A DNA stretch of 64,000 bases from contig PLJH01000141.1 of NCBI GenBank assembly GCA_003139615.1, forward strand, positions 1-64,000, read 5' to 3'. The DNA comes from Alphaproteobacteria bacterium. Its GTDB lineage: Bacteria > Pseudomonadota > Alphaproteobacteria > Micropepsales > Micropepsaceae. Below the pieces are notes generated by a model that was given only the letters and a program-made list of their open reading frames with translations, did no database searches and was not told the origin of the DNA. Position 1 is the stretch's first letter. Every line of letters begins with the position of its first letter. A program made the translations under genes and the position numbers. Shown one piece after another: positions 16,006 through 57,317 of this stretch.

Positions 16006-19000
16006 GGCATCGGCCCCGCCAGCTGACTGGGCAGAATGCGAGCCGCTGTCCCCTGCGCGAAGCAATCGTCGAGACCGGCCAGAAGATCACGCAGAAATGC
16101 GGCTTCCGGTTCTTTCTCCAATCCGAGAGGTATCGCGACAGTACGCAAGAACTCCAGGCTGGTGACGAAGTACAGGCGCCAGCGCGCCCTGCTGAGCAGG
16201 ACGTTCATGCGCCGTGGGTCGCTGATGAAGCCCAAGGCGCGCCGCAACGTGGCATGGTGATTGTTGCGCACGAGTGAGACCACGATCGCATCGGCCTCGT
16301 TGCCCTGAAACGCATCAACCGTGCTGCACCAGGCGTTACCCCGTGCCACCGCCGTCAGCCGCGATAGCGCGGCCCGGCAATTGTCATCCTCAGCCAACTC
16401 CGTCCGCAAGCGAGTCACCTGCCTGGCATAGGGCGAAAGCACGGCGAGCGACGGTCGGCTGTCGGCGCTTGACGGTTTGAGGAGCTGCACGATGTCGCGA
16501 ACGGCCTGGACCTCGCCGGCGTTTGTAAAGCGGGGATGACGTTCGACGTTGCGGCTGCCGACCGTCGACTGCTGGTAGGGCATATCGACCACGACGATCG
16601 GCGTATCGGGTAGGCGCTTCGGATCCGCGCTGACGATCGGGCTCGGCGTGGAAGCGAATTTCGCTACCGCTTGCCGCCCCGTGCCGATGGCGCCGCCATA
16701 GAAACAGCTTGAAACAAGGCCAGCGATAGCGGGGTGCATGCGATGCTGAATCGTCAGGACGCGCGCGATGTTCGGCGGCCGGGCACCCGGCCTCTGCTGC
16801 CGCGCGGCTTCATCTTCGATCAGCGTTTGGAACAGAAACAGCATACGCTTGGCGTCGGCGCAGAGCTGACCGAATTCCGTGCCGGCGTCGTCGTCATCGA
16901 TCAACTCAGAGAGTTCATCGTCCACGACATCCCGGAGTGAGCGCTCCGTAAGTTCGAGCCCGAGACGTAGCGCGTTACGTAGACGCTCGGGGTCGTTCAG
17001 CAGATCGTCTGCCTTTTCGGCGCCGAACGGTGGCAACTGCTTATGATCGCCGATCATCAAGCGACGATGCGAGAGGAGCAGTGGCATCAGGAGTTCAATC
17101 CCAGTGGCCTTACCGGCTTCTTCAACGATGGCCCAATCAAACTGCCCCTTCTCGTCCACCAGCCGTTCCAGGTCGGCAGAGTTGGTTGTCGCGAAAACGA
17201 CGTTCGCCGCGCGCATCACGAGCCCTTCGAGCGCACGGACTTCTGCCCGGGTCGCACCCGGGTGGGCCGCTGTCCCGCCGACGGCGGAGCGCAGCGCCTC
17301 GACCAAGCGAGGCGTGGCGCTGCGCGCCAGATCGCTGGCGGCGAGGCGGCTGGCAAGCCTGCGCGTCTGGCTTGCTAGGTCCAACGCGGTAGTGGCGTCA
17401 TTGCCCTCAGGACCTGAGCAACGGACCGCGAGCGGGTGCCCTGCCGACTGCGTCTGCCAGTCTTGCTGCAGCTCCGAGACAAGATGGTCGACGGAGTGAT
17501 GGCTCTGGGCGGTCAGCAAGATGCGCGCCGCCGGTTCGTCGGCGAACCGCCGGCGGACGACCTCCCGAACGAGGAAGGTCTTTCCGACGCCGGGTGGGCC
17601 TTGCAGCAGATAGAGCGGAAGGATGCCGATCAATTCCTTCAAGGCGCCTTGTTTGGCGTCGTCCAGGCGGGCGAGGAAGGCATCGTCTTGTACCGTTTCA
17701 TGGGTCTCGATGAGACCGCCGCGGGGGTCGGCCAGCATGCGCAGGAGTTCGCTATGTTCGCGCAGCCCACGCAGGGCGCGCGCGCGGCGCTGGAACTGCG
17801 CAATACGACCACGGAATTCGCCCGGGATAAGCAATCCTTCCGCAGGAGGAATGCTTACGGTTTGCGAGGGGATTCTGAAGATGAAGGTCGGGGCGCTGTC
17901 CTGGTCGGTGGTAGACTCGTACTGCAGCTCGACATCGCCGCGCGTGCGATTGCCAAGCGCGCGCGCCTCGGTAAACAGCCATCCCTCGTCATCAGAGATC
18001 GCGTCGCGCTCGAGTAGGTCTTGCAACCGGTTTTGCATCGAACGAAGCCCCAGCGCTTCCGTCAACTGGTTGCGCTCGGCATCTTCCAGGAGCTGAAAGC
18101 GCATCCGCGGCTCGGCATCCTCGCCAGCGACGGTCTCCGGAATGGCGGTAACTGGAAAGACCTCGGCCGACGCAAATACCAAATCCAGCGCGTGGAGCAG
18201 CGTGAAAGCGCGTCGCGTTCGGTCCTCACGGCTTGGCCGTCGTTGTTCGCCTTCCAGCTGGCGGATGATCCGATCCCAGTTGAGCGTGCGGCCTCGCAAG
18301 CGAGGAACGCGGTCGCGCGCCTCGCCCCCCAGCGTCATCAAGCTCAGAGCGGACGACGGAATGGCGCAGTTCTCGTCTACCGTCCCACGCCAAGAGTCCG
18401 CTTGGTCGGCGTCGCCGCAGAAGGCAAACTCCCACGTCGGCGTCTGAGCCTGTCCGACTCGGTACTGCCGCAGCGGGTAGACGAGATCGTTACCGCGCAG
18501 GAAAAGACGCAATGTGTCAGCGGCGCGTGTGGCGATGATGCGTGGTTCCGCGCTGAGATCAGCGCTCACGAACTCCCGCTGTAGATCAATGTCGTCGGTT
18601 TCGATGGTCGAACCGCTAGCTTCGCGGATGGCACGCGAGAGATCGCTGTCGCGACCCAGTGCAAGGATCACAAAATACTTCGCCTCGTCGGCAGCGGCCG
18701 CCGTCTCCAACAGCGAGACGATACGGTCCAGGCGCTGGACGACAAAATCGCCGTCGAGTTGCGTCAGGGTTGCCGGATAGAGGAGTTCGCGGAGCAAGGC
18801 TATCTCGTCGGCGGATGTATGATCGGCGACGGCATGGGAGGGTATCTTCAGGTCGAGCACACGATCGACGCGGACATTGAGGAGGCGAGCACAGAGTTTC
18901 GCGAAAGCGGCCCAGTCGTCGAGAAAAGATACCGCTACGACGTTAGTATGACGGGTACGATTGCTGGCGGAGCCGAGCAAGCGCATCGACCATTCAAAGC

Positions 19001-19589
19001 CAGTCAACTGGAAGTCGAGATCGGAGCCGCCAGCGGTCAACACGGACCAGGCATCGAGATTGCAATGCAAGAGCCCTTGGCTGTGAAGGATTTCGAGGGC
19101 GAGCGCAACACGACGCAGGTTTTCCCAGAGCTGACGACGTCTGTTGGGCGCCGACATGGAACGCAGCCACTCGGTCCCGCGCCGGTTGGGATCGAGCAAG
19201 ATCTCCGCCGGTTGGCGTAGACCGGCGCCGATGACGATGTAGAAGCCGCGTTCGTCCTGGCCGGCATCCACTAAGCGTCCGATGTATTCGTCCGCGCCAG
19301 GGCTGCCACCGAGACGGTGCAGGACGCGCAATTCGTTTCTCCAAATGTCGACGAGATCGCCGTCGTCAACATGAGCGCCGCGCGGCCAGACGCGGACGAG
19401 TACCGGATTGCCGTCGGCCGAGACGCCTTCGATGATTCCGGGGACACCGGTGGCGCGTCCGGGTTTGAGCAGATAGGTCTCTCCCGGCCGATATTTAGCG
19501 AGAAATTCGCCGCGGCGGCTTCGGCGCGGCCTGGCGGCGCTGGTCTTCTTCGTCTTCTTCGTCTTCTTCTTCGTCTTGCTAGCTGTCAT
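16002..19589 (-). CDS. Kinase-like domain fused to a UPF1-type SF1 helicase
   Basis: About 1,195 residues. After a Lys-rich start (ASKTKKKTKKTKKTS), an N-terminal protein-kinase-like domain carries LEILHSQGLLHCNLDAWSVL where kinases have HRDLKPEN, and LTGFEW for DFG, so it is probably a pseudokinase. The C-terminal half is an SF1 helicase: LLQGPPGVGKTFLVREVV near residue 660, WAIVEEAGKATG near 820, MIGDHKQLPPF, then LTIQHRMHP, VLSPYARQ and TVDAFQGNEADAIVVSLVRN. I use the ATG at 19589; a TTG at 19643 in the same frame is possible and neither start has a good ribosome site. It follows the MBL gene closely and is coupled to the PLD gene. Confidence 0.85.
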   Translation of the reverse strand: MTASKTKKKTKKTKKTSAARPRRSRRGEFLAKYRPGETYLLKPGRATGVPGIIEGVSADGNPVLVRVWPRGAHVDDGDLVDIWRNELRVLHRLGGSPGADEYIGRLVDAGQDERGFYIVIGAGLRQPAEILLDPNRRGTEWLRSMSAPNRRRQLWENLRRVALALEILHSQGLLHCNLDAWSVLTAGGSDLDFQLTGFEWSMRLLGSASNRTRHTNVVAVSFLDDWAAFAKLCARLLNVRVDRVLDLKIPSHAVADHTSADEIALLRELLYPATLTQLDGDFVVQRLDRIVSLLETAAAADEAKYFVILALGRDSDLSRAIREASGSTIETDDIDLQREFVSADLSAEPRIIATRAADTLRLFLRGNDLVYPLRQYRVGQAQTPTWEFAFCGDADQADSWRGTVDENCAIPSSALSLMTLGGEARDRVPRLRGRTLNWDRIIRQLEGEQRRPSREDRTRRAFTLLHALDLVFASAEVFPVTAIPETVAGEDAEPRMRFQLLEDAERNQLTEALGLRSMQNRLQDLLERDAISDDEGWLFTEARALGNRTRGDVELQYESTTDQDSAPTFIFRIPSQTVSIPPAEGLLIPGEFRGRIAQFQRRARALRGLREHSELLRMLADPRGGLIETHETVQDDAFLARLDDAKQGALKELIGILPLYLLQGPPGVGKTFLVREVVRRRFADEPAARILLTAQSHHSVDHLVSELQQDWQTQSAGHPLAVRCSGPEGNDATTALDLASQTRRLASRLAASDLARSATPRLVEALRSAVGGTAAHPGATRAEVRALEGLVMRAANVVFATTNSADLERLVDEKGQFDWAIVEEAGKATGIELLMPLLLSHRRLMIGDHKQLPPFGAEKADDLLNDPERLRNALRLGLELTERSLRDVVDDELSELIDDDDAGTEFGQLCADAKRMLFLFQTLIEDEAARQQRPGARPPNIARVLTIQHRMHPAIAGLVSSCFYGGAIGTGRQAVAKFASTPSPIVSADPKRLPDTPIVVVDMPYQQSTVGSRNVERHPRFTNAGEVQAVRDIVQLLKPSSADSRPSLAVLSPYARQVTRLRTELAEDDNCRAALSRLTAVARGNAWCSTVDAFQGNEADAIVVSLVRNNHHATLRRALGFISDPRRMNVLLSRARWRLYFVTSLEFLRTVAIPLGLEKEPEAAFLRDLLAGLDDCFAQGTAARILPSQLAGPMP

Positions 19590-19651
19590 GGAACTGCTTT
19601 GGGTTTTAGCCGGTGTGGAGCGGACGAATAGTCGTCCTCTCAAAAAATACG

Positions 19652-20509
19652 CTACGCCGCCGCGACGGCGGCGTGTTGGAATGTGAGGGTCTCAAAATTC
19701 GATCCCTTACGGCGCGTCAGCAGATTCTTGCCCACGCCGCCCGCATTGGTCGCCCAAACATGTTCGGCCACCGCCTGGTACGCCTGGATCGAAGCACCGT
19801 GGGGGTGATCGTACTGGCTATCGACACCCGCGCTAACCAGCACCGTGTTGGGACTGATATTGAGCAAAGCCTTGGGATAGACGCCGGAGATCGATCCGTG
19901 GTGCGACGCCGCCATTACGTCAGCGACGAGCTTGTCGCCGAACAAACGGCTGATCGTTTCCCAACGGTCGATTTCGGTGTCGCCGGTGGCGAGATAGCGA
20001 AACCCTTCTGCGCCATTGCCCACGATCTTCGCTACAATGCTGCAATTGTTGGAGGAGTCCATGTCCTCGAAATGCGGCGAGAACAGCTCGACGGTGAAGG
20101 TCTTCCCGAGGCCTTCAATGGTGCGGGTGTCCATCTTGTCAAGGCGAATAGAGTGCCGCACGAGCGGCCGCGATGTTGAGGCCCGCCGGCGCTCATGCTT
20201 GTTGATCGAATTGAAAACTGCGGTGGCGCAGTCCGTGTCCTTGTAATATTTGGGATACATGATCCACGCAGGCTGAAAATTCGACAGGATCCATTCGACG
20301 CCCAGATCGTGTGCATGATCGGAATCGAAGCCCGTCAGGATGAGCCCCCGGACATCGATCCCCTTGAAGTAAGTCGATAAGGTTTGCTGGATTTCCTCGG
20401 GACTGACCTTTTCGCATTGGGGCATGTGGGCATCGACAATGACGCCTTCGCCTCCGACCCGAATCCCGGCAAGCGCGCCTTGATCGACAAACAGCGTTAG
20501 AACATCCAT
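19652..20509 (-). CDS. Metallo-beta-lactamase-fold hydrolase (ComEC-like)
   Basis: The protein has 285 residues and no signal peptide. ComEC-type MBL motifs are seen: TGFDSDHAHDL near residue 59 (family THxDxDH; the first His is Gly here), ATGDTE near 175 and ASHHGS near 202. Most metal ligands are kept, so activity on nucleic acids or phosphoesters is possible. The start overlaps the JAB gene end by 13 bases. As I recall, MBL proteins have been noted beside bacterial E1-E2-JAB gene sets in comparative genomics; the role is unknown. Confidence 0.8.
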   Translation of the reverse strand: MDVLTLFVDQGALAGIRVGGEGVIVDAHMPQCEKVSPEEIQQTLSTYFKGIDVRGLILTGFDSDHAHDLGVEWILSNFQPAWIMYPKYYKDTDCATAVFNSINKHERRRASTSRPLVRHSIRLDKMDTRTIEGLGKTFTVELFSPHFEDMDSSNNCSIVAKIVGNGAEGFRYLATGDTEIDRWETISRLFGDKLVADVMAASHHGSISGVYPKALLNISPNTVLVSAGVDSQYDHPHGASIQAYQAVAEHVWATNAGGVGKNLLTRRKGSNFETLTFQHAAVAAA

Positions 20510-21432
20510 AGCCGCCCCCGCTTCTTCTTGTGAGATAGTTCCGCGACCAGTTGCGCGTTGCAGGCGCGTTCAGTTGCGATCAGTGCGGCGCGCGCGCTGG
20601 GAAACGAATTTTTGCCGAGCGCCTTTGTTACCGGTTCAAGATTTGCGTGCGGATTGCGCAGCGTGACGCTGCAGACCGACGTGTCGGCGTCGCGCAGAAC
20701 CACAACCTCTTGGTCCGAGCCATCGGCCAATGTGATATCGCCCCGCCAATAGATGCCGAGTTCCTTCGATTGTAGCGTTTTCACCTTCGTGAAGAACTGC
20801 GAGATCGCGTCATGATCCTGGACGAGGTCTGCGTTGGCGACGACGGTGTCGCGCGGCGGCGTGTGTCTGCGTGCGGGCATGGTCTCCTTCGCGATGGGCC
20901 AGACCAACGGCGCGTCGACCAAGCTCACGTCATTCGCTGCAATTTCGTAGACGGTCTCATCACCACGCCGCATCAGGTAGTTCTTGAAGAGGTAGCGTTG
21001 CAGGCCCGTCTTGCCGGGCACTTTCTCGGTGACCAGAAGGGCATAGAAGAAATCGATGTTGTGTTTGCTGTGTCCGACGATCCGGCGATAAGTCTGAATG
21101 TCGCCGCTGCTCAGGTGGTGCAACCCGTTTACGTGATGGGTGTGCCAATTGCCCAAATGCTCGATCGACGGCAAGTGATCTTCGATCTGGCGGAAAACCT
21201 TTTCCTGATATTCGCCGTCCTGCTTGAAATAGGTCTGGGTGCGCTGGGCATTGGGGCCGGGCTCGATCACCCCGTTGACCGTCAGGCTGAGCCTGTTCCC
21301 CGCGGCATTGTAGGTGCCCAGGATACGGCCGCCGGTCTCATCGACGTTATACCGGTCGCATTCGTCGAAGACGGCCTCGATCGCGGCACGTGGGATTTCG
21401 AGCTTGATGTTGTCGGCGCGGGTGAACATCAC
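20497..21432 (-). CDS. JAB/JAMM metallopeptidase (deubiquitinase-like)
   Basis: The protein has 311 residues. The N-terminal Mov34/MPN domain has Glu32 in VDETGGRILGTY, and GNWHTHHVNGLHHLSSGD gives His97, His99, Ser108 and Asp111, the JAMM zinc site (spacing one residue longer than usual). Such enzymes cleave isopeptide bonds or trim ubiquitin-like precursors. The C-terminal ~130 residues (LGIYWRGDITLADGSDQEVV...) form a separate domain I do not recognise. The ATG overlaps the E1 stop (ATGA at 21429-21432). Confidence 0.88.
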   Translation of the reverse strand: MMFTRADNIKLEIPRAAIEAVFDECDRYNVDETGGRILGTYNAAGNRLSLTVNGVIEPGPNAQRTQTYFKQDGEYQEKVFRQIEDHLPSIEHLGNWHTHHVNGLHHLSSGDIQTYRRIVGHSKHNIDFFYALLVTEKVPGKTGLQRYLFKNYLMRRGDETVYEIAANDVSLVDAPLVWPIAKETMPARRHTPPRDTVVANADLVQDHDAISQFFTKVKTLQSKELGIYWRGDITLADGSDQEVVVLRDADTSVCSVTLRNPHANLEPVTKALGKNSFPSARAALIATERACNAQLVAELSHKKKRGRLWMF

Positions 21433-22277
21433 GATGTGTGCTCCTCACAGACGCGGCACCCATTGATGGGGGGCAGCGCAAACCGCTGCACCTGGAAGTG
21501 CTTGTCGAACGGATGCACCGGCCGGTTTCCCCAGGCGAGATAATTCTGCTCGATCGGCTCCATGTTCTTCGGCCGTTCGGGCAAGCCCCTCGCGATCGCG
21601 TCCAGCGCGTAGCGGGTGTGGAAGTTGGTGATGAAGGCGATATCGACGTTAAGACCCGGCGAATCCTTGATCTCGGCGACCGGTAGGCCGTACATGGCAT
21701 CCCGCTCTTCCTGACTGACGAGATCGATCTCGCGGATGCGCTCGCGCTGTGGCTTGCGCTCAAGAAACATCTCAAGGCAGCCCAGGCAGCCGGTCTCTTT
21801 CGGACGATAGGCGTAGACTTCGCCACCGATGCCGCGGGTGAACACTCGCCCCACGACGAACGGCGTGCCGGTCCGCACGCAGGCCTCATTCAGACGATAG
21901 CGTGACGGTTCATTGTCGGTGGCCAGGATCACAACGCCGGCGCCGCGCACCCGATCATCCAGATCCGGCAACGCCATCAGATCCTGGTTATGGAGTTCGG
22001 CATGGACGTCGGGATTGCGGTCCTTGAGAAGATCGGCGACCGCGTCCGTCTTGTTCCAGCCGATATAGCGAAGACCGCAGGCGTGACGGATGACGTTTTC
22101 CTCGCCCAGCGTCTGATTGTCATAAAGTGCGAAATTGCGGACGCCCGACATCGCGAGCTGAAGCGCAACCTGGCTTCCGCCAGATCCGCAGCCGGCAACG
22201 ACCACCTTTGCCTGACCGAGCAGACCCACGTCGTATAGGCGCTCGATGCGCTCAAACAGTCTGCTTTTGCCGTCCAT
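21429..22277 (-). CDS. ThiF/E1-like adenylyltransferase
   Basis: The protein has 282 residues. The nucleotide loop is VVVAGCGSGGSQ at residues 26-36. Typical ThiF/E1 features follow: LYDNQTLGEENVIRH, then ATDNEPSRYRLNEA near 120. Two CxxC pairs (164/167 and 274/277) probably bind zinc. No obvious separate catalytic-cysteine domain is seen, so it may pass the activated modifier directly to an E2. It overlaps the upstream fused E2 gene by 26 bases. Confidence 0.88.
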   Translation of the reverse strand: MDGKSRLFERIERLYDVGLLGQAKVVVAGCGSGGSQVALQLAMSGVRNFALYDNQTLGEENVIRHACGLRYIGWNKTDAVADLLKDRNPDVHAELHNQDLMALPDLDDRVRGAGVVILATDNEPSRYRLNEACVRTGTPFVVGRVFTRGIGGEVYAYRPKETGCLGCLEMFLERKPQRERIREIDLVSQEERDAMYGLPVAEIKDSPGLNVDIAFITNFHTRYALDAIARGLPERPKNMEPIEQNYLAWGNRPVHPFDKHFQVQRFALPPINGCRVCEEHTS

Positions 22278-22803
22278 CCCCTACTCCCAAAAGCGGCCAC
22301 TCGCCGGTGTGTCGCCACGTTTCGTAGCGGCCGATCCAACGGCGCGCGTTGTCCAGCGCATCGCGCGCCGTGTTCTTGCCCGGATTCCAGGAACTCATAA
22401 CGCCGAAAATGCAGAGCGCGCCATCGGCGAAGCGGTGCGGCGCGTCTTCGTCGACAGAGTCGACATAAACCCGCGGGCATGCGTTGGGATAGTTGTGGGG
22501 CAGCGTGATCGCGATCACGTATGTTTTGTCGCCATGCTCATGCTTGATGCGAATGGCGACCTCTTTGTTGTCGGTGATGGTCGTGTTCGCGACTTCGCCT
22601 GCCTGTTGCAGCGCGTCGAGTTCTTGCGCGATGCGGGCGGGCGAGACATCCGGCAGGAAAACCGAAATCGGCACCAAGCACGCCTGACGCCGACCATTGC
22701 GTTCAATCACAAAGGCCTCGCCATGATCGACGACGCGATCGAGAATCTCGCCGGGCCGCGATCGCAGCTCCGTCATCGGGAGCGGTGTGAAATCGAGTCT
22801 CAT
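22252..22803 (-). CDS. Phd/YefM antitoxin-like domain fused to an E2-like conjugating enzyme
   Basis: The protein has 183 residues from the ATG at 22803, which overlaps the upstream stop (ATGA). Residues 1-60 match the Phd/YefM fold: MTELRSRPGEILDRVVDHGE, then AFVIERNGRRQACLVPISVF. Residues ~70-170 are UBC/E2-like: KTYVIAITLPHNYPNACPRV, then DGALCIFG with candidate catalytic Cys131 and SWNPGKNTARDALDNARRW. The fusion is unusual. The Phd part could bind DNA and autoregulate the operon, or bind a partner; this is inference. Confidence 0.8.
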   Translation of the reverse strand: MRLDFTPLPMTELRSRPGEILDRVVDHGEAFVIERNGRRQACLVPISVFLPDVSPARIAQELDALQQAGEVANTTITDNKEVAIRIKHEHGDKTYVIAITLPHNYPNACPRVYVDSVDEDAPHRFADGALCIFGVMSSWNPGKNTARDALDNARRWIGRYETWRHTGEWPLLGVGDGRQKQTV

Positions 22804-23180
22804 CCTGTGTGCGCCAGCGACGGCCCGGGCCAGCGATTGGTGGCGAGATACACCTGGTGCTTGTTGAGCCAGACCGCTGCCTGCCCCAACGCGTATTTGA
22901 GGTCGTGACGCGCGGGGTTCCAGACGCTCGGGTGCATGTAGCAAATGTGCCCGTCCTGATACATGTGCATGCCGTGCTTCACTGCCGGCGTGATCACCGT
23001 CACCCTCGGCATCACCGAGGGATATCCGGCGAAGGTGACCATGATGATGTACACCTGACCGACCGAGGTCTGCAGCGCGGCCTTGATGTAGAGCCCGCCG
23101 TCAGTGGTCGTGTAGGTCTCGATGTTCGGGAAGTGCTCCGCCGCCACCCGGATGTCGATCTGCAAACGCTGCAAGTCCAT
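22800..23180 (-). CDS. E2-like ubiquitin-conjugating enzyme
   Basis: The protein has 126 residues with a UBC-type core: YIIMVTFAGYPSVMPRVTVI, then MHMYQDGHICYMHPSVWNP with candidate catalytic Cys80 and the WNP motif at 87-89. The Cys-to-WNP layout is shared with the next E2 gene. E2 enzymes carry a thioester-linked modifier to a target. The start shares one base with the preceding stop (TAATG at 23178-23182), so it is coupled to the 60-aa protein. Confidence 0.83.
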   Translation of the reverse strand: MDLQRLQIDIRVAAEHFPNIETYTTTDGGLYIKAALQTSVGQVYIIMVTFAGYPSVMPRVTVITPAVKHGMHMYQDGHICYMHPSVWNPARHDLKYALGQAAVWLNKHQVYLATNRWPGPSLAHTG

Positions 23181-23362
23181 TACACCGGCTCCCCGTATTC
23201 GCCGCCCAGATCTTCGCGCATCGTCAGCGGCTTGCGGCCGCCGCGCTCGGTGGTGGTGGTTTGGTTCTTGGCGCGCACCTCGCCGTTGGGGAGAATCTCG
23301 ATCTCCACCTCGTCTTCGCGCTGCAGGATCGCCTCGAGTTCTGCGATAGACGGCCTGGCCAT
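23180..23362 (-). CDS. Small acidic protein with a near-C-terminal Gly-Gly, first gene of the conjugation operon
   Basis: The protein has 60 residues: MARPSIAELEAILQREDEVE, a short beta-like stretch (IEILPNGEVRA) and an end of EDLGGEYGEPV. It is strongly acidic at the N-terminus and too short for a full ubiquitin fold. The LGG followed by six residues resembles a modifier precursor that a JAB peptidase could trim to a terminal Gly-Gly. That role is inference; it could instead be a regulator or scaffold. AGGGAA lies ~8 bases before the ATG. Confidence 0.65.
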   Translation of the reverse strand: MARPSIAELEAILQREDEVEIEILPNGEVRAKNQTTTTERGGRKPLTMREDLGGEYGEPV

Positions 23363-23386
23363 TGATTTTGTTCCCTATTTGTATAA

Positions 23387-23406
23387 AATCGTGCGATCAC
23401 ACGATT
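23387..23406. promoter_or_regulatory. Inverted-repeat operator between the conjugation operon and patatin gene
   Basis: Arms AATCGTG and CACGATT around CGATCA form a perfect repeat. It overlaps the end of TATAAA (23382-23387), a possible -10 element, in the 143-bp divergent intergenic region. A regulator here could control both transcripts. Confidence 0.55.
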
Positions 23407-23505
23407 GCGCGGTTCACAGTCTCAGAGTTCCTGAAGCCTGTCAAGATTTCGTCGAGCGATGCCAGAGACACCGATATATGGGTTTCGAGCGGGGTGGTTG
23501 TCAGC

Positions 23506-24696
23506 ATGGATATCGAAAAGAGAGACCTCAGCGGCTCTCCCAACTTTGGTCTGGCGCTTTCGGGCGGTGGGGTTCGCGCGGCCGTTTTCCATCTGGGTGT
23601 TTTGCGCTGCCTTGCCGATCACGGGGCAATGGAACACGTGAGCCATCTTTCGACGGTCTCAGGCGGCAGTCTCATCACCGCCGCGGTGATGATGGCGAGC
23701 GCCATGCGGTGGCCGAGCTCGACCGAATATCGCGACAGCGTCTATCCGCGGCTGAGAGAACTGCTGACGACGCGCGATCTGTTCAGCCTCAAAGCGCTTG
23801 GGACCCGCGGCGTGTTGCGGCACAATTTGAAACTGCTGAGCCGACGCGCCGAGATCCTCGTCGACCTGCTTCAGCTTCAATGGAATATCAACGCGAGCCT
23901 CAGCGATCTGCCGGAGACGCCCGTCTGGTGGATCAACGCCACGAGCTTTGAGTCTGGAAAGAACTGGCGGTTCTCAAAACGTGAGATGGGAGATTGGCGG
24001 TTTGGACGCCACTACGCTCCGCCGTTCAGTCTCGCACAGGCTGTGGCTGCGTCGGCGGCCGTGCCTTACGCGATCGGTGCCTTACGATTCGCACTTCCGC
24101 GCAGCGGTTGGTATGCGACCGATCCGGCCACTCGCAAACCGTTGAACGCGATCGAACCACCCGCGGATGCCATCCACCTGTGGGACGGGGGCGCTTACGA
24201 AAATTTGGGTCTCGAACCGCTCTACAAACCGGCCCAAGGACTGTTGGGGTGTAACTTTCTGATTTGCAGCGACGCGTCGGGGCCACTTTCGACCACGCCG
24301 GCGCATCACTTGCGCACCTTGTTCAATGGCCGGCTCGCCAGTCCGCGCCTGTTCGACATTGCTAGCGACCAGATCCGCGCGTTGCGCAGCCGGATGTTCG
24401 TGGGCTCCATCGGGCGCGGCGAGATTCAAGGGGCGCTGCTGCGCATGGGAAACACCGCGCGCAGTCTCGATGTCAAATCGGGACGCACCGGAGTAGAGTC
24501 AAGATACGATGATTTCCTATCCGATGCCGACGTAGCGGTCGCCGCGAGCCATCCGACCGATCTCAACGCGTTGTCGATCGAGGCGTTCGATAGGCTTGCG
24601 CGACACGGTTACGAAGTCGCTGATCACACTCTCACCACCTATATTCCACAGCACTTCATAAGCTCAGCTCACGCCAGGTCGGCAGACTCGACGTGA
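23506..24696 (+). CDS. Patatin-like phospholipase
   Basis: The protein has 396 residues from the ATG at 23506, which starts just before the domain. The oxyanion loop is SGGGVRAA at residues 19-26, the nucleophile is Ser52 in STVSGGS, and the catalytic Asp is in WDGGAYENLGL near 227. All patatin elements are present, so lipid hydrolysis is likely. Patatin-like phospholipases serve as membrane-damaging effectors in CBASS (CapV), but no cyclic-nucleotide synthase is visible here. It is divergent from the E2-E1-JAB operon and its 3' end overlaps a convergent small gene by 28 bases. Confidence 0.85.
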   Translation: MDIEKRDLSGSPNFGLALSGGGVRAAVFHLGVLRCLADHGAMEHVSHLSTVSGGSLITAAVMMASAMRWPSSTEYRDSVYPRLRELLTTRDLFSLKALGTRGVLRHNLKLLSRRAEILVDLLQLQWNINASLSDLPETPVWWINATSFESGKNWRFSKREMGDWRFGRHYAPPFSLAQAVAASAAVPYAIGALRFALPRSGWYATDPATRKPLNAIEPPADAIHLWDGGAYENLGLEPLYKPAQGLLGCNFLICSDASGPLSTTPAHHLRTLFNGRLASPRLFDIASDQIRALRSRMFVGSIGRGEIQGALLRMGNTARSLDVKSGRTGVESRYDDFLSDADVAVAASHPTDLNALSIEAFDRLARHGYEVADHTLTTYIPQHFISSAHARSADST

Positions 24697-24902: not shown

Positions 24903-25595
24903 TCAAGGGTCCGCAGGTTGTGGTTGGGAGTCGTAGTGCTCGATACCTTCGTAGCGCTTAACTGCCAACGCGAGCTGTTTGGTTATTGGAAGCACTAGAA
25001 ACTCGCAGACCATGACAGCGAACCAGCTGAAGGTCGCAGCAGATGCAATCGTGCTGATGGCAAGAACTCCTCCGAACGCGATTCCGTAGAATGTAATTCC
25101 ATTCACAATCTGGGCAATTCCAACCGCGGTCAACGCTCGTCCATAAAAGAATCGCGCACGCGTTCTAACCTTCAGGCGGGACATAACAAACGAGTTCATC
25201 AGCTCGGTAACGAAGTACGCAACGATACTCGCCGTCACTATCCGTGGAGTTTGAGAGAACAGTGCTTTGAATGCAGGATCGTTTGTATACCCATTCGCGG
25301 GCTGCAAGAGCACAGCCGCTTGAAGGAATAGTGCATACAGGACGAGGCACCCAAGTCCGACGTAGAGCAGGCGGCGGACCCGCCGGTAGCCGTAGACTTC
25401 CGCCATTATGTCCGCGATAATTAGCGAGAACACATAGCTGAGCTGTGACGCGATTACAGACATTCCGTAGATGTTAATGAATTTGAGGTTCAGAACGTTG
25501 GTAATGAGCATGAGCGCCATCATGACCATCGCAAAATAAATCAGCCCTTTTGGCTGCCAGGTGTCTCCCACCCTTACCGTAAGCTCCTTCGCCAT
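24903..25595 (-). CDS. VUT (YhhQ)-family transporter, queuosine-precursor type
   Basis: A 230-residue polytopic inner-membrane protein. The family pattern is visible: LIYFAMVMMALMLITNVLNL, FINIYGMSVIASQLSYVFSL, IIADIMAEVYGY and a late AYFVTELMNSFVMSRLK. YhhQ-type proteins import 7-deazapurine precursors of queuosine; some occur beside DNA 7-deazaguanine modification genes, but none of those is visible here. The start codon interlocks with the divergent FRG gene (CATG at 25593-25596). Confidence 0.8.
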   Translation of the reverse strand: MAKELTVRVGDTWQPKGLIYFAMVMMALMLITNVLNLKFINIYGMSVIASQLSYVFSLIIADIMAEVYGYRRVRRLLYVGLGCLVLYALFLQAAVLLQPANGYTNDPAFKALFSQTPRIVTASIVAYFVTELMNSFVMSRLKVRTRARFFYGRALTAVGIAQIVNGITFYGIAFGGVLAISTIASAATFSWFAVMVCEFLVLPITKQLALAVKRYEGIEHYDSQPQPADP

Positions 25596-26400
25596 GCGCT
25601 ATCTCCCACCGATCGAATGCGATGAAGTCCATTACGCCTCATGGCGGGACTTCAAAGCCGGGTTTGGCGACTACCTTAGCAAACACCACCACGGAATAGA
25701 ACACCACTTCGTCTTTCGCGGGCAACGAGAAGCGCGATGGCCGCTCCAAACAAAGTTCGATCGCGATTTGGGACAGTTGCCGGGGAAGGCCAGCGAGCAC
25801 CGAAAGAATCTTTTGACTGCTTTCAAGCGTCAACTCATGCTCGCCGGCGAAACGTTACCAGACCCTAAGTTACCCCACGCCGATGCACGGACCTTTGCGC
25901 TGGGGCAACACTACGAACTTCCTACGCCGTTATTAGATTGGTCAGTAAGTCCCTACGTTGCCGCGTTTTTTGCCTGCGATGGGGCAGTGCAGACGATCAG
26001 CGTAAATTCTGCGAGAGAGGTGAGAGTGCTCGAAGATCGCCTTGCAATCTTTGCGCTTCGCCGTTATGGCTGCGATGATGACTGGAAGAAAATGAAAGTC
26101 AAATTCATTGAAGATGATGCTCCGGCGAATAAGCGCATTAGGCCGCAGCTTGGGCTCTTCACGCTTACGCCGCACAAATACGCCTCGCTCGAAGCGTGCA
26201 TCGGCAGCTACTGTCGAATCGCAAAGGTTCCGATCGAGAAGTTCCTCACTAAGTTTACGTTGCCCTACAACGCTGCGTTTGGAGCGCTTGCGGATCTCGA
26301 ACTGATGGATATTACCGCCAGGCGAATTTACGCGGATATCGATGGTATTAGCCGATCAGCTGCATTGCGAGTGCGCTTAGCTGCGCTACACGAGTCTTAG
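25594..26400 (+). CDS. FRG-domain protein
   Basis: The protein has 268 residues. The FRG signature FVFRGQREARWPLQTKFDRD is near residue 40, and GQHYELPTPLLDWSVSPYVA near 105 is typical of the family. FRG proteins are named for the Phe-Arg-Gly motif and often occur in defence and mobile regions; their chemistry is not settled. The ATG at 25594 shares bases with the start codon of the divergent VUT gene; an in-frame start at 25561 would overlap that gene more. Confidence 0.8.
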   Translation: MRYLPPIECDEVHYASWRDFKAGFGDYLSKHHHGIEHHFVFRGQREARWPLQTKFDRDLGQLPGKASEHRKNLLTAFKRQLMLAGETLPDPKLPHADARTFALGQHYELPTPLLDWSVSPYVAAFFACDGAVQTISVNSAREVRVLEDRLAIFALRRYGCDDDWKKMKVKFIEDDAPANKRIRPQLGLFTLTPHKYASLEACIGSYCRIAKVPIEKFLTKFTLPYNAAFGALADLELMDITARRIYADIDGISRSAALRVRLAALHES

Positions 26401-26415: not shown

Positions 26416-27783
26416 TCAGGGCGTTTCAAGTCGTGGCGGCGTGTATTTGACTTCCTTTCCTACCCCGTCGTCGTGATCTTTGATCAATTTCTGCAGCATC
26501 GGAAAATCATCGATGTACGAGCGATGCTTGTGTCCGTTCACTATGTCGACCAAATTCCAACGCAACTTGTCATCGAGATCGTTCGATGCGGCATCCCAGC
26601 CTCGTACGACAAGTTCATTCCACAGCGTTGTCATCGCCGATATTAAAGTAGCTGCTTCGTCTCGCCGATTGACTGCAACCCAAAATTTACAGTCTGCCTT
26701 AGAGTCTGGAGCGACTGCGAGGACATCTTTCATATTTAGGTAGCCAATGGTGCGTACGTAAAAGCTGGTTTTGTTGGGACCGTATTTCGGGAATTGCTTT
26801 TCAGCGTATCTGGCCTGTAGACCGCCTACGACACCAAATTCCAATTCGTCATCGACAACAGCTTGGAGGACTTCGTCCGCCGAGGATTTGAACACGACAT
26901 TTTTGGCACGGAGGCGTGGTTGCGTAACAAAGGCACTGTGGCTTCCCGGTCGTGGGTGCGTCTTTATTCGTATCGATCCGCGGATGGTATTTTCCCTAAC
27001 CACATCGGAAAAATCGGACTTCCAAGGAACCCCAATTTTCCCTGTCATTTCTACGTTTTTTGGCCTTCGCCAAATGACGGCGTATCCCTCATATCGGATA
27101 AGGGGATCGCTTGAATAGATGAGCTTGTGTTTGAAAAGTGTCTCTACCGATTTCAATTGTGTAAGTAGCGCGCTGTTATATAGAGCGACATCGATGCGGC
27201 CATTGTAAAGTGCCGCGCCAACATCCGACCAAGGAACGTCCTCGACAACAACAGAATATCCGAGCAGTTCTGAGTTACGAGATAACAGGGCGGGAAACAC
27301 GGATTCGGCAAAGGGGATATCATTGATGCGGATGACGTGGTGCGGTCGTTTCAATTCGTCTCGTGAGAGCGTTTTCTCCGCCCGAGCGGACCAATAGGCA
27401 CGCTTGATGTCCGAAATGGTGTCAAAAGTTATAATGCCGAATCCGGGTAGCTCGAAACCAAACTGACGTTGTATCACGGCGATTATCGTATCAGTCATGG
27501 TTTGGATGCGGCCAAGTGCTTTGATCTCGGACGCTTCCGTTCCTCTGACAAAAAAACTAATAATGCTCTGGAGCGCATGCAAATTCTCGTATCGTTCTTT
27601 GTTCAATGACTTTTGCTTCGTGTTTGTCTTGATGGCCGTGCCGATCACACTTTTCTGAAGCTGCTTCTTCAGTTGGTCTACCTCAAGCTTGCCGTCAAGA
27701 TAAGCTCTGCAGCTACGCAGGATTTCGTCGAAAACCGGATGGCTATTCGGCTTTACGTGTTCGAGCGTTGGCTTGTTGCTCAA
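26416..27783 (-). CDS. Cytoplasmic periplasmic-binding-protein-like protein
   Basis: About 455 residues from a TTG at 27783, which has GGAG 7 bases upstream and removes an unlikely Cys/Trp-rich start; an ATG at 27846 is the alternative. After a helical N-terminal ~130 residues comes a type-2 solute-binding fold: VIRINDIPFAESVFPALLSR, then SDVGAALYNGRIDVALYNSA, IRYEGYAVIWRRP, and EVLQAVVDDELEFGVVGGLQ. No signal peptide is seen, so ligand sensing would occur in the cytoplasm. It lies between the FRG protein and the YcaO locus. Confidence 0.6.
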   Translation of the reverse strand: MSNKPTLEHVKPNSHPVFDEILRSCRAYLDGKLEVDQLKKQLQKSVIGTAIKTNTKQKSLNKERYENLHALQSIISFFVRGTEASEIKALGRIQTMTDTIIAVIQRQFGFELPGFGIITFDTISDIKRAYWSARAEKTLSRDELKRPHHVIRINDIPFAESVFPALLSRNSELLGYSVVVEDVPWSDVGAALYNGRIDVALYNSALLTQLKSVETLFKHKLIYSSDPLIRYEGYAVIWRRPKNVEMTGKIGVPWKSDFSDVVRENTIRGSIRIKTHPRPGSHSAFVTQPRLRAKNVVFKSSADEVLQAVVDDELEFGVVGGLQARYAEKQFPKYGPNKTSFYVRTIGYLNMKDVLAVAPDSKADCKFWVAVNRRDEAATLISAMTTLWNELVVRGWDAASNDLDDKLRWNLVDIVNGHKHRSYIDDFPMLQKLIKDHDDGVGKEVKYTPPRLETP

Positions 27784-27992: not shown

Positions 27993-28022
27993 TTGCCTAG
28001 CAATGGATTATCTCAGTATACT
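27993..28022 (+). promoter_or_regulatory. Sigma70-type promoter for the peptide-YcaO locus
   Basis: TTGCCT (27993-27998) and TATACT (28017-28022) are separated by 18 bases. The first gene starts 46 bases downstream. Confidence 0.5.
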
Positions 28023-28068
28023 GGTCGGATTGATGCGATGGGCGACTGTGACTCGAAGTGAGGTTTCC

Positions 28069-28287
28069 ATGCCTGTCTTGGAGAACGACACGATTGTTTT
28101 GTCGGGTTCACGCTGGCGCTATTTTCCAGGGAAATATGAGGCGCATCAGCATGATGGCCTTTATGCGGCACAGGGGGAATCTTCTCGTCCACCGGCGCCC
28201 CAAAAAGAGCCTGCCCCAGGAGAAGCCGGCCATCGCCCGACCGATACGCCTCCAGCCCGAAAAATCAGTCGACCGAGCGAAAATTAG
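28069..28287 (+). CDS. Small peptide, possible precursor for the adjacent YcaO enzyme
   Basis: A 72-residue peptide from the ATG at 28069, chosen for GAGG 6 bases upstream. The first half, MPVLENDTIVLSGSRWRYFP, is ordered-looking; the second half is Pro/Glu/Ser/Thr-rich and disordered (SSRPPAPQKEPAPGEAGHRP). It lies 41 bases before the YcaO gene, the classic position of a RiPP precursor. It has no Cys, so thiazoles are excluded, but Ser and Thr could be modified. The precursor role is inference. Confidence 0.6.
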   Translation: MPVLENDTIVLSGSRWRYFPGKYEAHQHDGLYAAQGESSRPPAPQKEPAPGEAGHRPTDTPPARKISRPSEN

Positions 28288-28328
28288 CATATTGGACCTC
28301 CGCACAATAGTGTGGGCTCGTCGTCGCC

Positions 28329-29822
28329 ATGGCTGACGAGAAGGGATATCTCAGTTTACTTTCTAGTGTCGGGATTACGCTTCATCACCCCGACGGCCTC
28401 ACGACAATCCCCACGCCCATAGGGGTGTCACGGCGCGCTCTTCTTGCGGAGGCATCTGCACTCGCGCTCAGTCCACTTTCCCACAATTCGCTAGCAGGTC
28501 GCATCGCGCAGCAAATTCGTACCAGCCGCGAACCGGACCTGCCATCAGCTCCGGTCCCCGGCTCTATAACTCCACTGGATTTTTCACAAGCAGACGAATG
28601 TGACGGTCGGCTCTATTTCTCATCTGTCCGATTTTCGTCTGACCAGTTGATTGAGCGACTTGAGAAGCTCGGGTTGAAGCTGCAGGAGCAATTGGAAACA
28701 GACGAAGGCGATATTGACGAACAAATTAATCCTGCGCGGGTAGCGGCAATCGCTGAGGTCATCCGTCGAACTGATGGCCGTGTCATAGGCGGAGGTAAGG
28801 GCCTCACTCGTCAAGCCGCTCGGGTCGGAGCCATTGCTGAAGCTGCCGAACGCGTCGTTGGAGCGAATCCAAAGGTTCCTGTATTTGTAAACTCAGCGCG
28901 CCGTCTTCGCGAAGAGCACGGCTTATTGATTCCTAGATTCGACGTTGGACCACGCGATGCCTACTCGGACGATCTGGTTATTGATTGGGTCAAAGGTCAG
29001 ACGCTGGATGGCATCGTCGTCGGTCTGCCTGCTGAGCGCGCTCTTTATGACTACGCTCCTCGTTCTGGAGTTTCAGCATTTACGTGGCAACACACAGCAG
29101 GACTCGCGGCGGGAAGCTCGCGTGAGGAAGCGATATGGGCTGGATTATCCGAATTGATGGAGCGGGACGCGTATTGGCTTGCTATGCGATGTCGCGCTAG
29201 ATGTCCAACAATTGACAATTCCATTGTGTTCGACGCACGGCCGAAACTGGCGGCAGCGCTTGGGAGAGCCGGCCTCAGAATTATCATGAGGAATTTTTCC
29301 CTCGACTGGCCGCTGACTATTGTAAGCGCTGTCGCTGTTGATGTCACAGGTCGGATTCCCGCTTTTGCTCATGGCATGGGCTCTGGCACCAACTTGGCGG
29401 CAGCAGCACTAAAAGCGCTGCTGGAATGTCTACAACTGCACTTCGGGTTGTCTCGTCGTTGCAGCGAAGCAAGACAGGCTGTTTTGTTCGGCGAAGTTTG
29501 TCGGCGTCCTGATCTCGCCTGGAGCGATCCCGGCTCAGCACAAGAGCTGGATCATCTCCTCAGCGCTGACGTCGATGGGTTCGCCATTCCCGATCAATCT
29601 GCAAACCAGGACAGTCAGAATATACTTCGGCTTATTCGCGAAAAGTCAGGAGATATATTTTGGGTTGATCTCGGTGAACTCGAAGGTGTGCATGTGGTTA
29701 GAGTCTATTTGCCGGATGCTTTGCTCCCGGAGCCCAATCTTGAACATGTACCGGCTCGACTAGCAACCTGGCTGAGACGGGCCAACCTACGATATGCGTA
29801 TGCTATTCCGATCTTGACTTGA
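28329..29822 (+). CDS. YcaO-domain protein (ATP-dependent peptide-backbone modifier)
   Basis: The protein has 497 residues. The YcaO domain starts near residue 155: GKGLTRQAARVGAIAEAAER, a central AGLAAGSSREEAIWAGLSEL followed by MERDAYW near 275, then AHGMGSGTNLAAAALKALLE. These are the ATP-binding Glu/Arg motifs of YcaO, which makes azolines, thioamides or amidines in peptides, or aids RimO in the housekeeping form. The N-terminal ~150 residues are non-standard and could bind the peptide. No dehydrogenase, E1-like partner or exporter is adjacent, so the locus may be minimal or degraded. Confidence 0.8.
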   Translation: MADEKGYLSLLSSVGITLHHPDGLTTIPTPIGVSRRALLAEASALALSPLSHNSLAGRIAQQIRTSREPDLPSAPVPGSITPLDFSQADECDGRLYFSSVRFSSDQLIERLEKLGLKLQEQLETDEGDIDEQINPARVAAIAEVIRRTDGRVIGGGKGLTRQAARVGAIAEAAERVVGANPKVPVFVNSARRLREEHGLLIPRFDVGPRDAYSDDLVIDWVKGQTLDGIVVGLPAERALYDYAPRSGVSAFTWQHTAGLAAGSSREEAIWAGLSELMERDAYWLAMRCRARCPTIDNSIVFDARPKLAAALGRAGLRIIMRNFSLDWPLTIVSAVAVDVTGRIPAFAHGMGSGTNLAAAALKALLECLQLHFGLSRRCSEARQAVLFGEVCRRPDLAWSDPGSAQELDHLLSADVDGFAIPDQSANQDSQNILRLIREKSGDIFWVDLGELEGVHVVRVYLPDALLPEPNLEHVPARLATWLRRANLRYAYAIPILT

Positions 29823-29843: not shown

Positions 29844-29873
29844 AAGAGCGCCACCTTCCTGGGTGGCGCTCTT
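29844..29873. terminator. Bidirectional terminator after YcaO
   Basis: A 12-bp perfect stem (AAGAGCGCCACC / GGTGGCGCTCTT) with a TTCCTG loop lies between the convergent YcaO gene and the 29890 gene. The minus side ends in TTTT after a C, a better T-tract than the plus side. Confidence 0.8.
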
Positions 29874-29889: not shown

Positions 29890-30531
29890 CTAGTTGTACG
29901 AAAGAACAAACACGAACACCGCTTTCGGGTCATAGAAGTGCGAGGTATGTCCGGGGCTGCTGCCGAACTCAAGACGGCGATACACTGACTCGAATTTGAA
30001 GATCATTTCGCTACGGTCGAATGCAGTTATTGGTTGCATTGCAACATGTAGCTCTTTGAGGTCTGCTCGAACGTTGTTGCGCACCACCAATTCGCACCCG
30101 ACCTGCGCGGGACAGAGTATCAAACCAAGTTCTGACGCTCGTGTGCAGATTTGGTCGTACGTTGCTCCAGCTGTTAGGCACAGTTGGCCGACTGAGACTC
30201 TGGTGAGCGTCAGTGTTTTGTTGTCCAATGCATAGACGCGAGCAGTCCGCGCCAGGAGCATCATAGTGTAGTCACTGACGATGATTCCTGAGGATCTTAT
30301 TGACTTGATAGAGATCGGATTAGGAGCTCGATTTTTGATGACTTGCCAAACCAGAAACGGCACCGCCGGTCGGTTGGGGACAAGTGCTCTGTGTAATGTC
30401 CCGCTCAATGCATCGGAATTTTTGATCCAGCAGTTGATAGAGCGGGCGTCCATATCCCGAGGTAGGGCTGCGATTACTGCGGCGTGCCATGCGTGATGCC
30501 GACTCACCGCCCTTGATTGTACTTTTTGCAT
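29890..30531 (-). CDS. Hypothetical protein, unrecognised
   Basis: A 213-residue soluble basic protein. I start it at the ATG at 30531 because GGGGGAG lies just upstream (a longer frame reaches 30552). Segments include IIVSDYTMMLLARTARVYAL, TLTRVSVGQLCLTAGATYDQ and LELGLILCPAQVG-like helices. I see no catalytic motif. It is convergent with YcaO, and a 17-bp inverted repeat lies 45 bases upstream of its start. Confidence 0.55.
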   Translation of the reverse strand: MQKVQSRAVSRHHAWHAAVIAALPRDMDARSINCWIKNSDALSGTLHRALVPNRPAVPFLVWQVIKNRAPNPISIKSIRSSGIIVSDYTMMLLARTARVYALDNKTLTLTRVSVGQLCLTAGATYDQICTRASELGLILCPAQVGCELVVRNNVRADLKELHVAMQPITAFDRSEMIFKFESVYRRLEFGSSPGHTSHFYDPKAVFVFVLSYN

Positions 30532-30575
30532 GGGGGGCTCCCCCAGTGCCATTGGACTCCAAAGAAGATGCTTTG

Positions 30576-39126: not shown

Positions 39127-42100
39127 TTATTCTGCCCCCGGCGCTGAACCGGGGGGCATCAGTTGCATTTGTGCGCCCAAGGCTAGACCGTAGAATAACA
39201 CAGGACCTGCGTATTGATTAAAAGTCGAGTTATTCCCTAATTTCCCGTCGCCCACAATGTGGACGCTCACGATATTTAGCTTATCGTTCTTAACAATAGT
39301 CAGTGTCACGGTCCCGTGATCATTATTATATGGAGCCCCGTCAAACATGTGGCCTGCCTCGGTCTTATTCACAATTGTGAAATCCTTAGGATCCACCGTC
39401 TGAATAATTGGATTATCAAAGCTTAGCATAACTTGGTGGGTGCCATCAGCAGCATAGGCGTCTCCAGGTGCCGACCAATATCTTAGAGCATCGAAGGCCT
39501 CGCTCTTAGAACACCCGATACATAACGGTACGGAAAAATCGTAATGGTGCGGTCCTACGTCGGACAAATCGGGCATTTGCTCGCTCGGCCCCCCGTATCC
39601 CACCGCCACTGGGCTTGCATCCGCAACCTGCATTGCTCCCTTGGTTACACCGGCCGATTGAGGTGAAGACGCGGACGCACCTGAGAGCGATCCGATGTCT
39701 GGCGTGAGGACCATATTCGCCGTGCTGCCAACTCCACTATAGGTAACATTGAGACCTTCGATGTCGCCCACATCCCCATACTTACCGCAAGAGGAAACGG
39801 GACAATTGCCGCTTGGGTCGGTCTTATCCGTGGGATCATTTCCAACGTAGGTGTAGAGATCGATATCGTCCTTATAACCGATGGGATCGGTCTGCATGAA
39901 ACGCCCGAGAGCCGGCGAATAATACCTCGCTCGATCATAATAGAGTCCGGTCTCGGCGTCGTAATACATGCCCACGTATCGGTAGGGCACGCCGCCCGTC
40001 GTGTTCAGCGGGCTGCTGCCATAAGGATCGTAGGTAAAGGGTCCATCGGAACCGCCACTCGCGGGGTTGCCGCTCGATTCCGACATGGCGACCACACTGC
40101 CGTGGTGGTCGGTGTGGAAGTAGGACGTCGAGCTGATGGTCGTGCAGGTAGGATTGGATGAGCCGGGGCAAGTTTCGAATGCCACCGGATCGTTGACCCC
40201 AAATCCTGGCACGAAGCGGCGCAATACATCACCGTTGCCATCATACTCCGCGATCTCGTCTTCACCGTCGTTAAGGAAGTTCGTGACCGTCGAGCCAACT
40301 TTCTTCGTCTCGCGGCGTCCGAGCGGATCATAGGCATAGCTCGACACGGACGTTCCGCTGTTTGACACGCTCATCATGCGGTTCTTCGGGTCGTAGCCGT
40401 AGGTATTGACGCCGTCGAAAGTAAGGTTGCCGTCGGTGTCATAGGTCAGGGACTGAGCCGAGCCGCCCATCAGCGTCACACTCGGATATTGGTTGAGAGC
40501 GTTGACGGCCGCGTAGGATGCTGTCCCTACCCCGCTCGGCGGCCCGAAGTCGTAGGCACTGTTCGAGACCGCCTCGCTCGAGAGCTGGTGCGCGTTTGTG
40601 TATTGCAGCGTATAGGGCGCGTTGTTCGTCGTCGTAGCGAATCTGTTCGTCAATGTGAGCAGGTCGCTGCCGGGCGAGTACGTGTAGGCGATCGAGGCGC
40701 CGTTCGGATAAGCAAGGTTCGTCGGTCGCGAATAGGAATCGTAGGTATAGGTCGCAAGTGCAGTTCCAGCGGAGTTCTTCGCCCACACCATGCGGTTCAT
40801 CGAGTCGAAGCTGTAATTGACGAAATAGCCGTCCGGCCAAGTGAGCCGCGTGCGGTTGCTGTTGGCGTCGAGAGTGTATGTCGTAGTATAGGTGCCTGTG
40901 AGGCCCGGGATGGTGTTCGCCGTCTGCGTTTGGCGGCCCGCCGTGTCGTAACCCGGTGTCAGCACATTGCCGAACGTGTTGTCGGAAACACCAGTTACCC
41001 GCCCGCCCAAGTCATAGCCTGTCGTGATCGTGTTGGCCAAGGTTGCGCCATAGGCCGGATCGACCTCCTGCACCAGCCGATTGAGCGGATCAAATGTGTA
41101 GCCGAACACATATCCCGCCCGGTTGGTGCGGGTCAGGATGTTGCTGTTCGCGTCATAGCCCGAAACGAATGTGGCTCCAGATATGGTGCCGTTCATGTCG
41201 ACTGTCGAATCCGGGTAGCTCGTTTTTGAAAGCCGGTTGAATCCGTCATAGGCATAGTCTGTGATATGCGACGGGCCATCGGCATCGTAGACGGAAAGCT
41301 TTTCGCCATCGCCCCCATTGGCGCCGAAGCTAGGCCCGGTCGCATAGGCATAGGTCGCAAAGATCATCTGGTTCGGCGTGCCGAGCCCGTGGATCTCCTG
41401 CAGCACGTTGCCGGCTGCGTCGTAGATCCTCTGCGTCTGCCTGAGTACCGGATCGGTGACGATACTGGGTCGGTCTGCGCCATCGTAAGTTGTGCTAGTC
41501 ATGCGGTTGTCGCCGTCCGTCACCGTCGACACTTTCGAGGTGGGTGTGTAAGTGGTTTTCTTGCTCATAACCCAGGTCGAGACGGTCGTGCCGGAGAACA
41601 CGGTCCCCATGTCGTCTTCGATGTCTCGGCCGACGACGTCGTAAATCGTACGATTCGAGGCGACGAGGCTCGCCGTCAGCGCACCACCATGATGGTCTGT
41701 TTCGAACTTCCGACGATCCAAATCGTAATCGTAGGACACCACTTCTCCGTTGGCAGACGACGAGTTCTGCCGCGGATCCGCAGTCCAGGAGACATTGCCG
41801 AACGCGTCATATCCAAACGAGGTCGTGAGCGCGAGATTCGCTGGATCGACGATGGTGGAAGTTGGCTCCTCGCTCGCATCGTAGATATTCTGCGTCTTGA
41901 TTGAGGTCGAAGAGGTGATTGGGTCGATAGATGTGAGCACTTTGCCGGCGGAATCGTAGGTGAAAGCGTAAGTGGGCGAGCCGCCTGTCACCGACGGCCT
42001 CACCGCCGTCGCAATCTCCGACGTGCCGTTAGTCCCGACGGGCTCATAGGTGAAGGTGGTGGTGTTACCGTTCGCGTCCTTGATGGAAGCGAGCTTTTGC

Positions 42101-46311: not shown

Positions 46312-46345
46312 TCTTGCCCCCCCGGCGAATAGGACTAGACGACTC

Positions 46346-49272: not shown

Positions 49273-49290
49273 TTCGTGTATCGTCGGGCC

Positions 49291-50994: not shown

Positions 50995-50997
50995 GCG

Positions 50998-51441: not shown

Positions 51442-51487
51442 CTGGCGTTGCGCGTTTGCCGGCGATCAGACCTCGCGCAAAGAAGGG

Positions 51488-53644: not shown

Positions 53645-53687
53645 ATTTCCCCCAATTCGGCCGCGCGGCTCGCGCAGCCCATTGTTC

Positions 53688-54790: not shown

Positions 54791-54792
54791 CG

Positions 54793-57309: not shown

Positions 57310-57317
57310 CCGGGCCT

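Follow-up and report, generated by a model that had tools for sequence, protein, structure and literature searches.

A conserved peptide–YcaO gene pair in a putative mobile four-gene module with a possible defence role in an alphaproteobacterial genome

The window analysed here is a stretch of 64,000 nucleotides from an alphaproteobacterium of the Micropepsaceae (assembly GCA_003139615.1, contig PLJH01000141.1, positions 1 to 64,000 of the forward strand), and its relevant features are collected in Table 1. A short open reading frame (ORF) encoding a Cys-free peptide is preceded by a ribosome-binding-like GAGG, 5 nt ahead of its ATG, and followed after a gap of 41 bp by a gene encoding a YcaO-domain protein. 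The gene of a PBP2-like (substrate-binding-protein-like) protein diverges from this pair and converges with the gene of an FRG-domain protein, the two 3' ends being 15 bp apart, which results in the order FRG→ ←PBP peptide→ YcaO→. A sigma-70-like promoter candidate lies upstream of the peptide gene, promoter-like sites being only slightly in excess in the region (3 versus 1.4 expected from shuffles); no inverted-repeat operator was found in the divergent promoter region between the PBP2-like and peptide genes, and no structured RNA within 24.5–31.5 kb. The 12-bp inverted repeat that follows the YcaO gene is likely a bidirectional terminator. Across this terminator-like repeat, a convergent gene (29890–30552, - strand) encodes a 220-aa protein with no family match, for which no counterpart was seen among the genes of the second locus described below.

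Table 1. Features of the peptide–YcaO locus and of its surroundings, with positions in the window
Feature	Position	Strand	Details
MkoA-like and MkoB-like genes	14230-19643	-	PADLOC 1e-254 (MkoA); PLD domain, 4e-90 (MkoB)
Consecutive genes for JAB, ThiF/E1 and two distinct E2-like proteins	20497-23180	-	ThiF-like gene (21429-22277) matches E1-E2 defence models
Patatin-like phospholipase gene	23362-24696	+	adjoins both the E1/E2 genes and the FRG/YcaO module
Vut_1/YhhQ-family transporter	24903-25595	-	Pfam Vut_1 4e-32; uncertain member
FRG-domain protein	25594-26400	+	ORF opens at 25561; Pfam FRG 6e-22; PADLOC PDC-S15 4e-49
PBP2-like (substrate-binding-protein-like) protein	26416-27783	-	about 455 aa from likely TTG start; 476 aa from GTG at 27846
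Sigma-70-like promoter candidate	27993-28022	+	46 nt 5' of the peptide ATG; TTGCCT-18-TATACT, 9/12 matches
Peptide ORF	28069-28287	+	72 aa, no Cys; ATG at 28069; MPVLENDTIVLSGSRWRYFPGKYEAHQHDGLYAAQGESSRPPAPQKEPAPGEAGHRPTDTPPARKISRPSEN
YcaO-domain protein	28329-29822	+	497 aa; Pfam YcaO E = 6e-44, residues 156-463
Perfect 12-bp inverted repeat	29844-29873		AAGAGCGCCACC..GGTGGCGCTCTT, directly after the YcaO stop

A sequence-only reading of this stretch had described a 72-residue peptide lacking Cys ahead of a YcaO protein with a non-standard N-terminus. Both ORFs were confirmed in the sequence, and residues 1–154 of the YcaO protein match no Pfam family, the isolated fragment being also negative at E values up to 10. 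When this N-terminal region was compared by hhalign with 15 PqqD sequences, using a query profile of two sequences, a PqqD-like leader-binding domain was returned at background-level probability, with nothing above the control segments. By its motifs and its Pfam match the protein belongs to the YcaO superfamily; alignment with E. coli YcaO and MJ1094 identified the ATP/Mg motif residues E171, E174, E267, E275, E278, R279 and E366, which we take, from the general YcaO literature, to bind Mg-ATP. By NCBIfam scores the protein falls between subfamilies: SagD is the best of them (108 bits, E 4e-31; cut-off 219), while methan_mark_1 (90 bits; cut-off 365), the generic YcaO kinase domain (73 bits; cut-off 75.65) and the E. 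coli-type model NF040716 (20.5 bits; cut-off 700) likewise stay below their cut-offs. A profile search of the PDB gave the archaeal YcaO MJ1094 as the best match, and an AlphaFold model built from a two-sequence alignment had a pLDDT of 32.

The genes adjoining the peptide–YcaO pair include no E1-like/ocin-ThiF protein, TfuA, dehydrogenase, protease or exporter, in agreement with the earlier remark that a cyclodehydratase partner, a dehydrogenase and an exporter are missing next to it. TfuA (PF07812) had no match anywhere in the window genome, which is 96.7% complete, and the one match to TIGR03882 in this genome is sub-threshold, lies away from the locus and contains in-frame stops. A ThiF-like gene 7 kb upstream (21429–22277) was ruled out as a partner, as it matches E1-E2 defence models and is part of an E1/E2/JAB set. 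The window YcaO shows neither the SagD score, the E1-like/ocin-ThiF-like partner and the PxPxP C-terminus of an azoline cyclodehydratase, nor the TfuA partner of a TfuA-dependent thioamidating YcaO, nor the above-cut-off NF040716 score of the E. coli-type (uL16) enzyme.

Homologues were searched for in genus, order, class and phylum samples, with single sequences and profiles, and by two pattern scans of GTDB contigs. One full-length YcaO homologue (37% identity) was found on contig JANQMY010000336.1 of the metagenome-assembled genome (MAG) Alphaproteobacteria bacterium PL25b_bin.64, an unrelated alphaproteobacterium, and a 62-aa Cys-free ORF (MLKVHESEGRVRLATLVSIGQRELSEEDRIFAWQGKEVYVPKPPKETTDTPKPGSDEGDGTA) lies upstream of it on the same strand. 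The glutamates and the arginine of the Mg-ATP site are kept in both YcaO proteins; the GKG motif is replaced in the MAG protein and the position of E. coli YcaO Asn187 in both, and the C-termini (...AIPILT and ...RTSILT) carry no PxPxP tail. The window and MAG peptides matched in BLASTP with E = 2e-4, and each was the other's best match when every ORF of both regions was compared (241 in the homologous contig, 476 in the other). Their score was reached by 1 of 20,000 shuffles, the match being weaker once the proline-rich tail is left out (107 of 20,000). Both loci keep the core G-x-x-E-x4-D-x-[LI]-[YF]-A-x-Q-G-[EK] followed by a Pro/Lys/Glu-rich tail, and 8 of the 13 identical residues are encoded by different codons, while the alternative reading frames of the peptide genes show no similarity between the loci. 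The reciprocal best match, the shuffle result and the silent alternative frames indicate that the peptide ORF did not arise merely by chance. Its proline-rich-tailed product is likely a substrate or a partner of YcaO. An ORF in the +1 frame also spans the peptide gene at both loci and ends over the YcaO start codon (window 28058–28336, + strand; region L038 of the MAG, 6307–6513, - strand); it was discarded as a conserved gene, its products being without similarity, and probably occurs at both loci by chance.

Altogether, tblastn of plasmids and phages, viral contigs, about 780 class and phylum genomes and the two GTDB pattern scans yielded this one extra locus. A YcaO from a Sinorhizobium plasmid, with a TfuA-like neighbour (judged by eye), and another from an L. 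brevis plasmid, with arginase-family and MFS genes nearby, were rejected as lying outside this subfamily. The genome mining that the sequence-only reading had suggested did return the same pair once more, and its worry that the peptide might not be conserved beside YcaO homologues was not borne out, since the sole full-length homologue has a related peptide upstream; a small precursor-like gene is conserved beside the putative modifying enzyme, as expected of a RiPP, at two loci, and co-conservation rests on these two known members (n = 2). We consider it very probable that the peptide and YcaO form a conserved pair within a mobile module.

The pair is accompanied in both genomes by the PBP2-like and FRG genes. 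The PBP2-like protein, 32% identical to its MAG homologue, has no evident signal peptide and no Pfam match; only weak similarities were found, to the LysR substrate-binding region, the ABC substrate-binding protein 3un6 and a phosphonate-binding family, and its AlphaFold model from a two-sequence alignment reached a pLDDT of 37. Among 385 class genomes this protein occurs in the two module genomes only, and among 398 phylum genomes nowhere else, bar one marginal match. The sequence-only reading had envisaged a minimal, unusual RiPP or a regulatory peptide modification; a peptide kept beside a YcaO homologue agrees with it and modification may be inferred, but "minimal" has to be dropped, as the PBP2-like and FRG genes belong to the locus.

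FRG has been assigned to the ART superfamily and suggested to be an NADase effector (PMC9503650). The window and MAG FRG proteins are 35% identical, both match PADLOC PDLC04937 (PDC-S15; 4e-49 and 3e-50, respectively), and a strong FRG match was restricted to the two module genomes among 80 class genomes. FRG relatives also occur on plasmids, with no YcaO or PBP2-like relative nearby, and the FRG link is therefore weaker than that between peptide, YcaO and PBP2-like protein. Its association could reflect hitch-hiking in the island, because FRG genes are frequent in the cargo of defence islands and the window protein resembles the FRG of Rhizobium jaguaris (34%) about as closely as that of the MAG. 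Membership of the transporter next to FRG is uncertain, since the families at the two loci are unrelated: Vut_1 in the window, whose genome holds one more, weak, Vut_1 match, and NCS1 in the MAG. The latter, a permease of the cytosine/purine/thiamine family (region L038, 6718–8055, - strand; Transp_cyt_pur 1e-11), is inserted in the peptide–YcaO operon. Both transporters possibly take up related small molecules.

The MAG locus has the order FRG→ ←YcaO ←peptide ←NCS1 permease PBP→, so that the PBP/peptide/YcaO block is inverted relative to FRG while its internal divergent layout is the same, and an integrase adjoins FRG. No YcaO homologue was found in the other searched species of the MAG's genus, and no full-length one elsewhere in the order to which the window belongs, of which 96 genomes were searched. 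On these absences and the integrase of the MAG, the four-gene module looks mobile. The third-position GC of the peptide and YcaO genes is 0.48–0.49, versus at least 0.7 for much of the surrounding element. Coupling-protein and Replic_Relax genes lie downstream of the module in the window; further on, beyond the element, are the gene of a 2412-aa RHS-repeat protein (39127–46365, - strand) and type II secretion genes (GspE, secretin, GspF; 49276–58529). On the other side, by its profile matches, the module adjoins a defence island with MkoA/MkoB-like genes that correspond to a Mokosh-type system, the E1/E2/JAB set and the patatin-like gene. The JAB/E1/E2 set resembles bacterial ubiquitin-like pathways, and a 60-aa ORF after it (23180–23362, - strand) could encode the conjugated protein.

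In YcaO catalysis a nucleophile attacks the carbonyl of a backbone amide, and ATP-dependent phosphorylation follows (PMC13063428). The aligned region of the two peptides holds no conserved Ser, Thr or Cys; this, together with the missing azoline-class and TfuA-class partners and the missing PxPxP end, makes an azoline product less plausible. The options left are amidine or thioamide chemistry, or a peptide that is not a substrate at all. We tentatively propose that FRG, the PBP2-like protein, the peptide and YcaO constitute a mobile module: YcaO would modify the backbone of the peptide, and the resulting product would act within the cell, together with FRG, in a conflict switch. The observations from which this proposal starts are the ORFs, the conservation of the peptide, the co-occurrence of the four genes, the intact YcaO motifs and the defence-island location; the peptide as substrate, the chemistry, the roles as effector and sensor and a function in defence are what we infer. 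YcaO would phosphorylate, and thereby activate, an amide in the backbone of the apparently co-transcribed peptide with no need for an E1-like or TfuA partner, and that the peptide is its substrate seems reasonably probable. The modified peptide would stay in the cell as part of the switch, most likely an anti-phage one, and would set it; FRG, as an ADP-ribosyltransferase-superfamily domain and predicted NADase, would be the toxic effector, and the PBP2-like protein a cytosolic small-molecule sensor. An intracellular switch is the most likely setting because exporter and protease are missing and a defence island adjoins. A conflict or defence role exerted together with FRG is conceivable and is put forward with caution. 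More doubtful is the full version, a previously undescribed bacterial defence system where a small protein with a YcaO-modified backbone and a PBP2-like sensor control an ART-fold FRG effector, which would be the first YcaO chemistry in intracellular immunity.

Several other explanations were weighed against this proposal. The four genes might be chance neighbours, independent cargo of an island, with a peptide ORF that may be non-coding; unrelated genes do gather in mobile islands, and FRG is found alone elsewhere. This is very unlikely, as all four homologues stand together in two unrelated genomes at 32–37% identity with the PBP/peptide/YcaO layout kept, both genome samples are otherwise nearly free of the PBP2-like protein, and the peptides are reciprocal best matches despite their codon differences. 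A conventional secreted RiPP, antibacterial or signalling, would have its peptide modified by YcaO and its protease, exporter or other enzymes encoded elsewhere. The peptide does lie directly 5' of YcaO in two genomes, stand-alone YcaO proteins make RiPPs such as bottromycin (PMC4603692), and streptamidine is made by a cluster in which the sole E1-like partner of YcaO is a remote one (PMC8442711). However, neither locus has an exporter, protease or immunity gene, the peptide lacks Cys as well as a core that is repeated or rich in Ser/Thr, PBP2-like and FRG genes do not belong to RiPP pathways, and the surroundings are those of a defence island. We therefore find a secreted product quite unlikely, and the conserved set with the PBP2-like and FRG genes, in its island setting, favours an intracellular conflict role over it.

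YcaO could instead modify a folded protein, be it the PBP2-like protein, FRG or a host or phage protein, the peptide being a small regulatory subunit or antitoxin-like partner. E. coli YcaO thioamidates the ribosomal protein uL16 with neither TfuA nor a small ORF close by (PMC13063428), MJ1094, the best PDB profile match, is an archaeal YcaO, and no residue kept in the conserved part of the peptide is heterocyclizable. On the other hand, the peptide gene sits immediately upstream and is apparently co-transcribed, which is the usual position of a YcaO substrate gene; this explanation is unlikely, and the intracellular switch with the peptide as YcaO substrate remains our preferred reading. So far YcaO enzymes have been known from RiPP biosynthesis and a few protein modifications (McrA, uL16), and a search of open-access papers found none that connects YcaO to FRG domains, to defence islands or to defence against phages. 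If the preferred reading is true, a mobile YcaO–peptide pair linked with an effector that is predicted to target NAD would carry the chemistry of YcaO into conflicts within the cell, and the four genes make a small testable set.

Among known systems, the bottromycin and E1-remote streptamidine loci also have a YcaO gene beside a small peptide gene and no recognisable canonical E1-like or ocin-ThiF partner; in contrast to them, the present locus has no hydrolase, oxidoreductase, methyltransferase or exporter, its peptide is unrelated as far as seen, and PBP2-like and FRG genes accompany it in the surroundings of a defence island. TOMM/SagD-type azoline cyclodehydratases share the YcaO domain, and SagD is the best NCBIfam subfamily here, but the window protein stays below the SagD cut-off, has no C/F protein and no PxPxP end, and its peptide is free of Cys and of a Ser/Thr-rich core. 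As regards the thioamide-forming YcaO proteins (McrA, uL16, thioamitides), the sequence profile has its best structural match in MJ1094 and TfuA, missing here, is dispensable in E. coli YcaO (PMC13063428), whereas the methan_mark_1 and E. coli-type scores are below their cut-offs (90/365 and 20.5/700). Finally, both module FRG proteins match PDC-S15, a PADLOC candidate defence system with an FRG domain that is listed as a single gene, whereas FRG is here accompanied by the PBP2-like protein, the peptide and YcaO. The joint occurrence of a small protein, its probable modifying enzyme and two further genes, one of them for a likely anti-virus effector, on mobile DNA of two unrelated bacteria points to a hitherto undescribed module of four genes that may act in defence.
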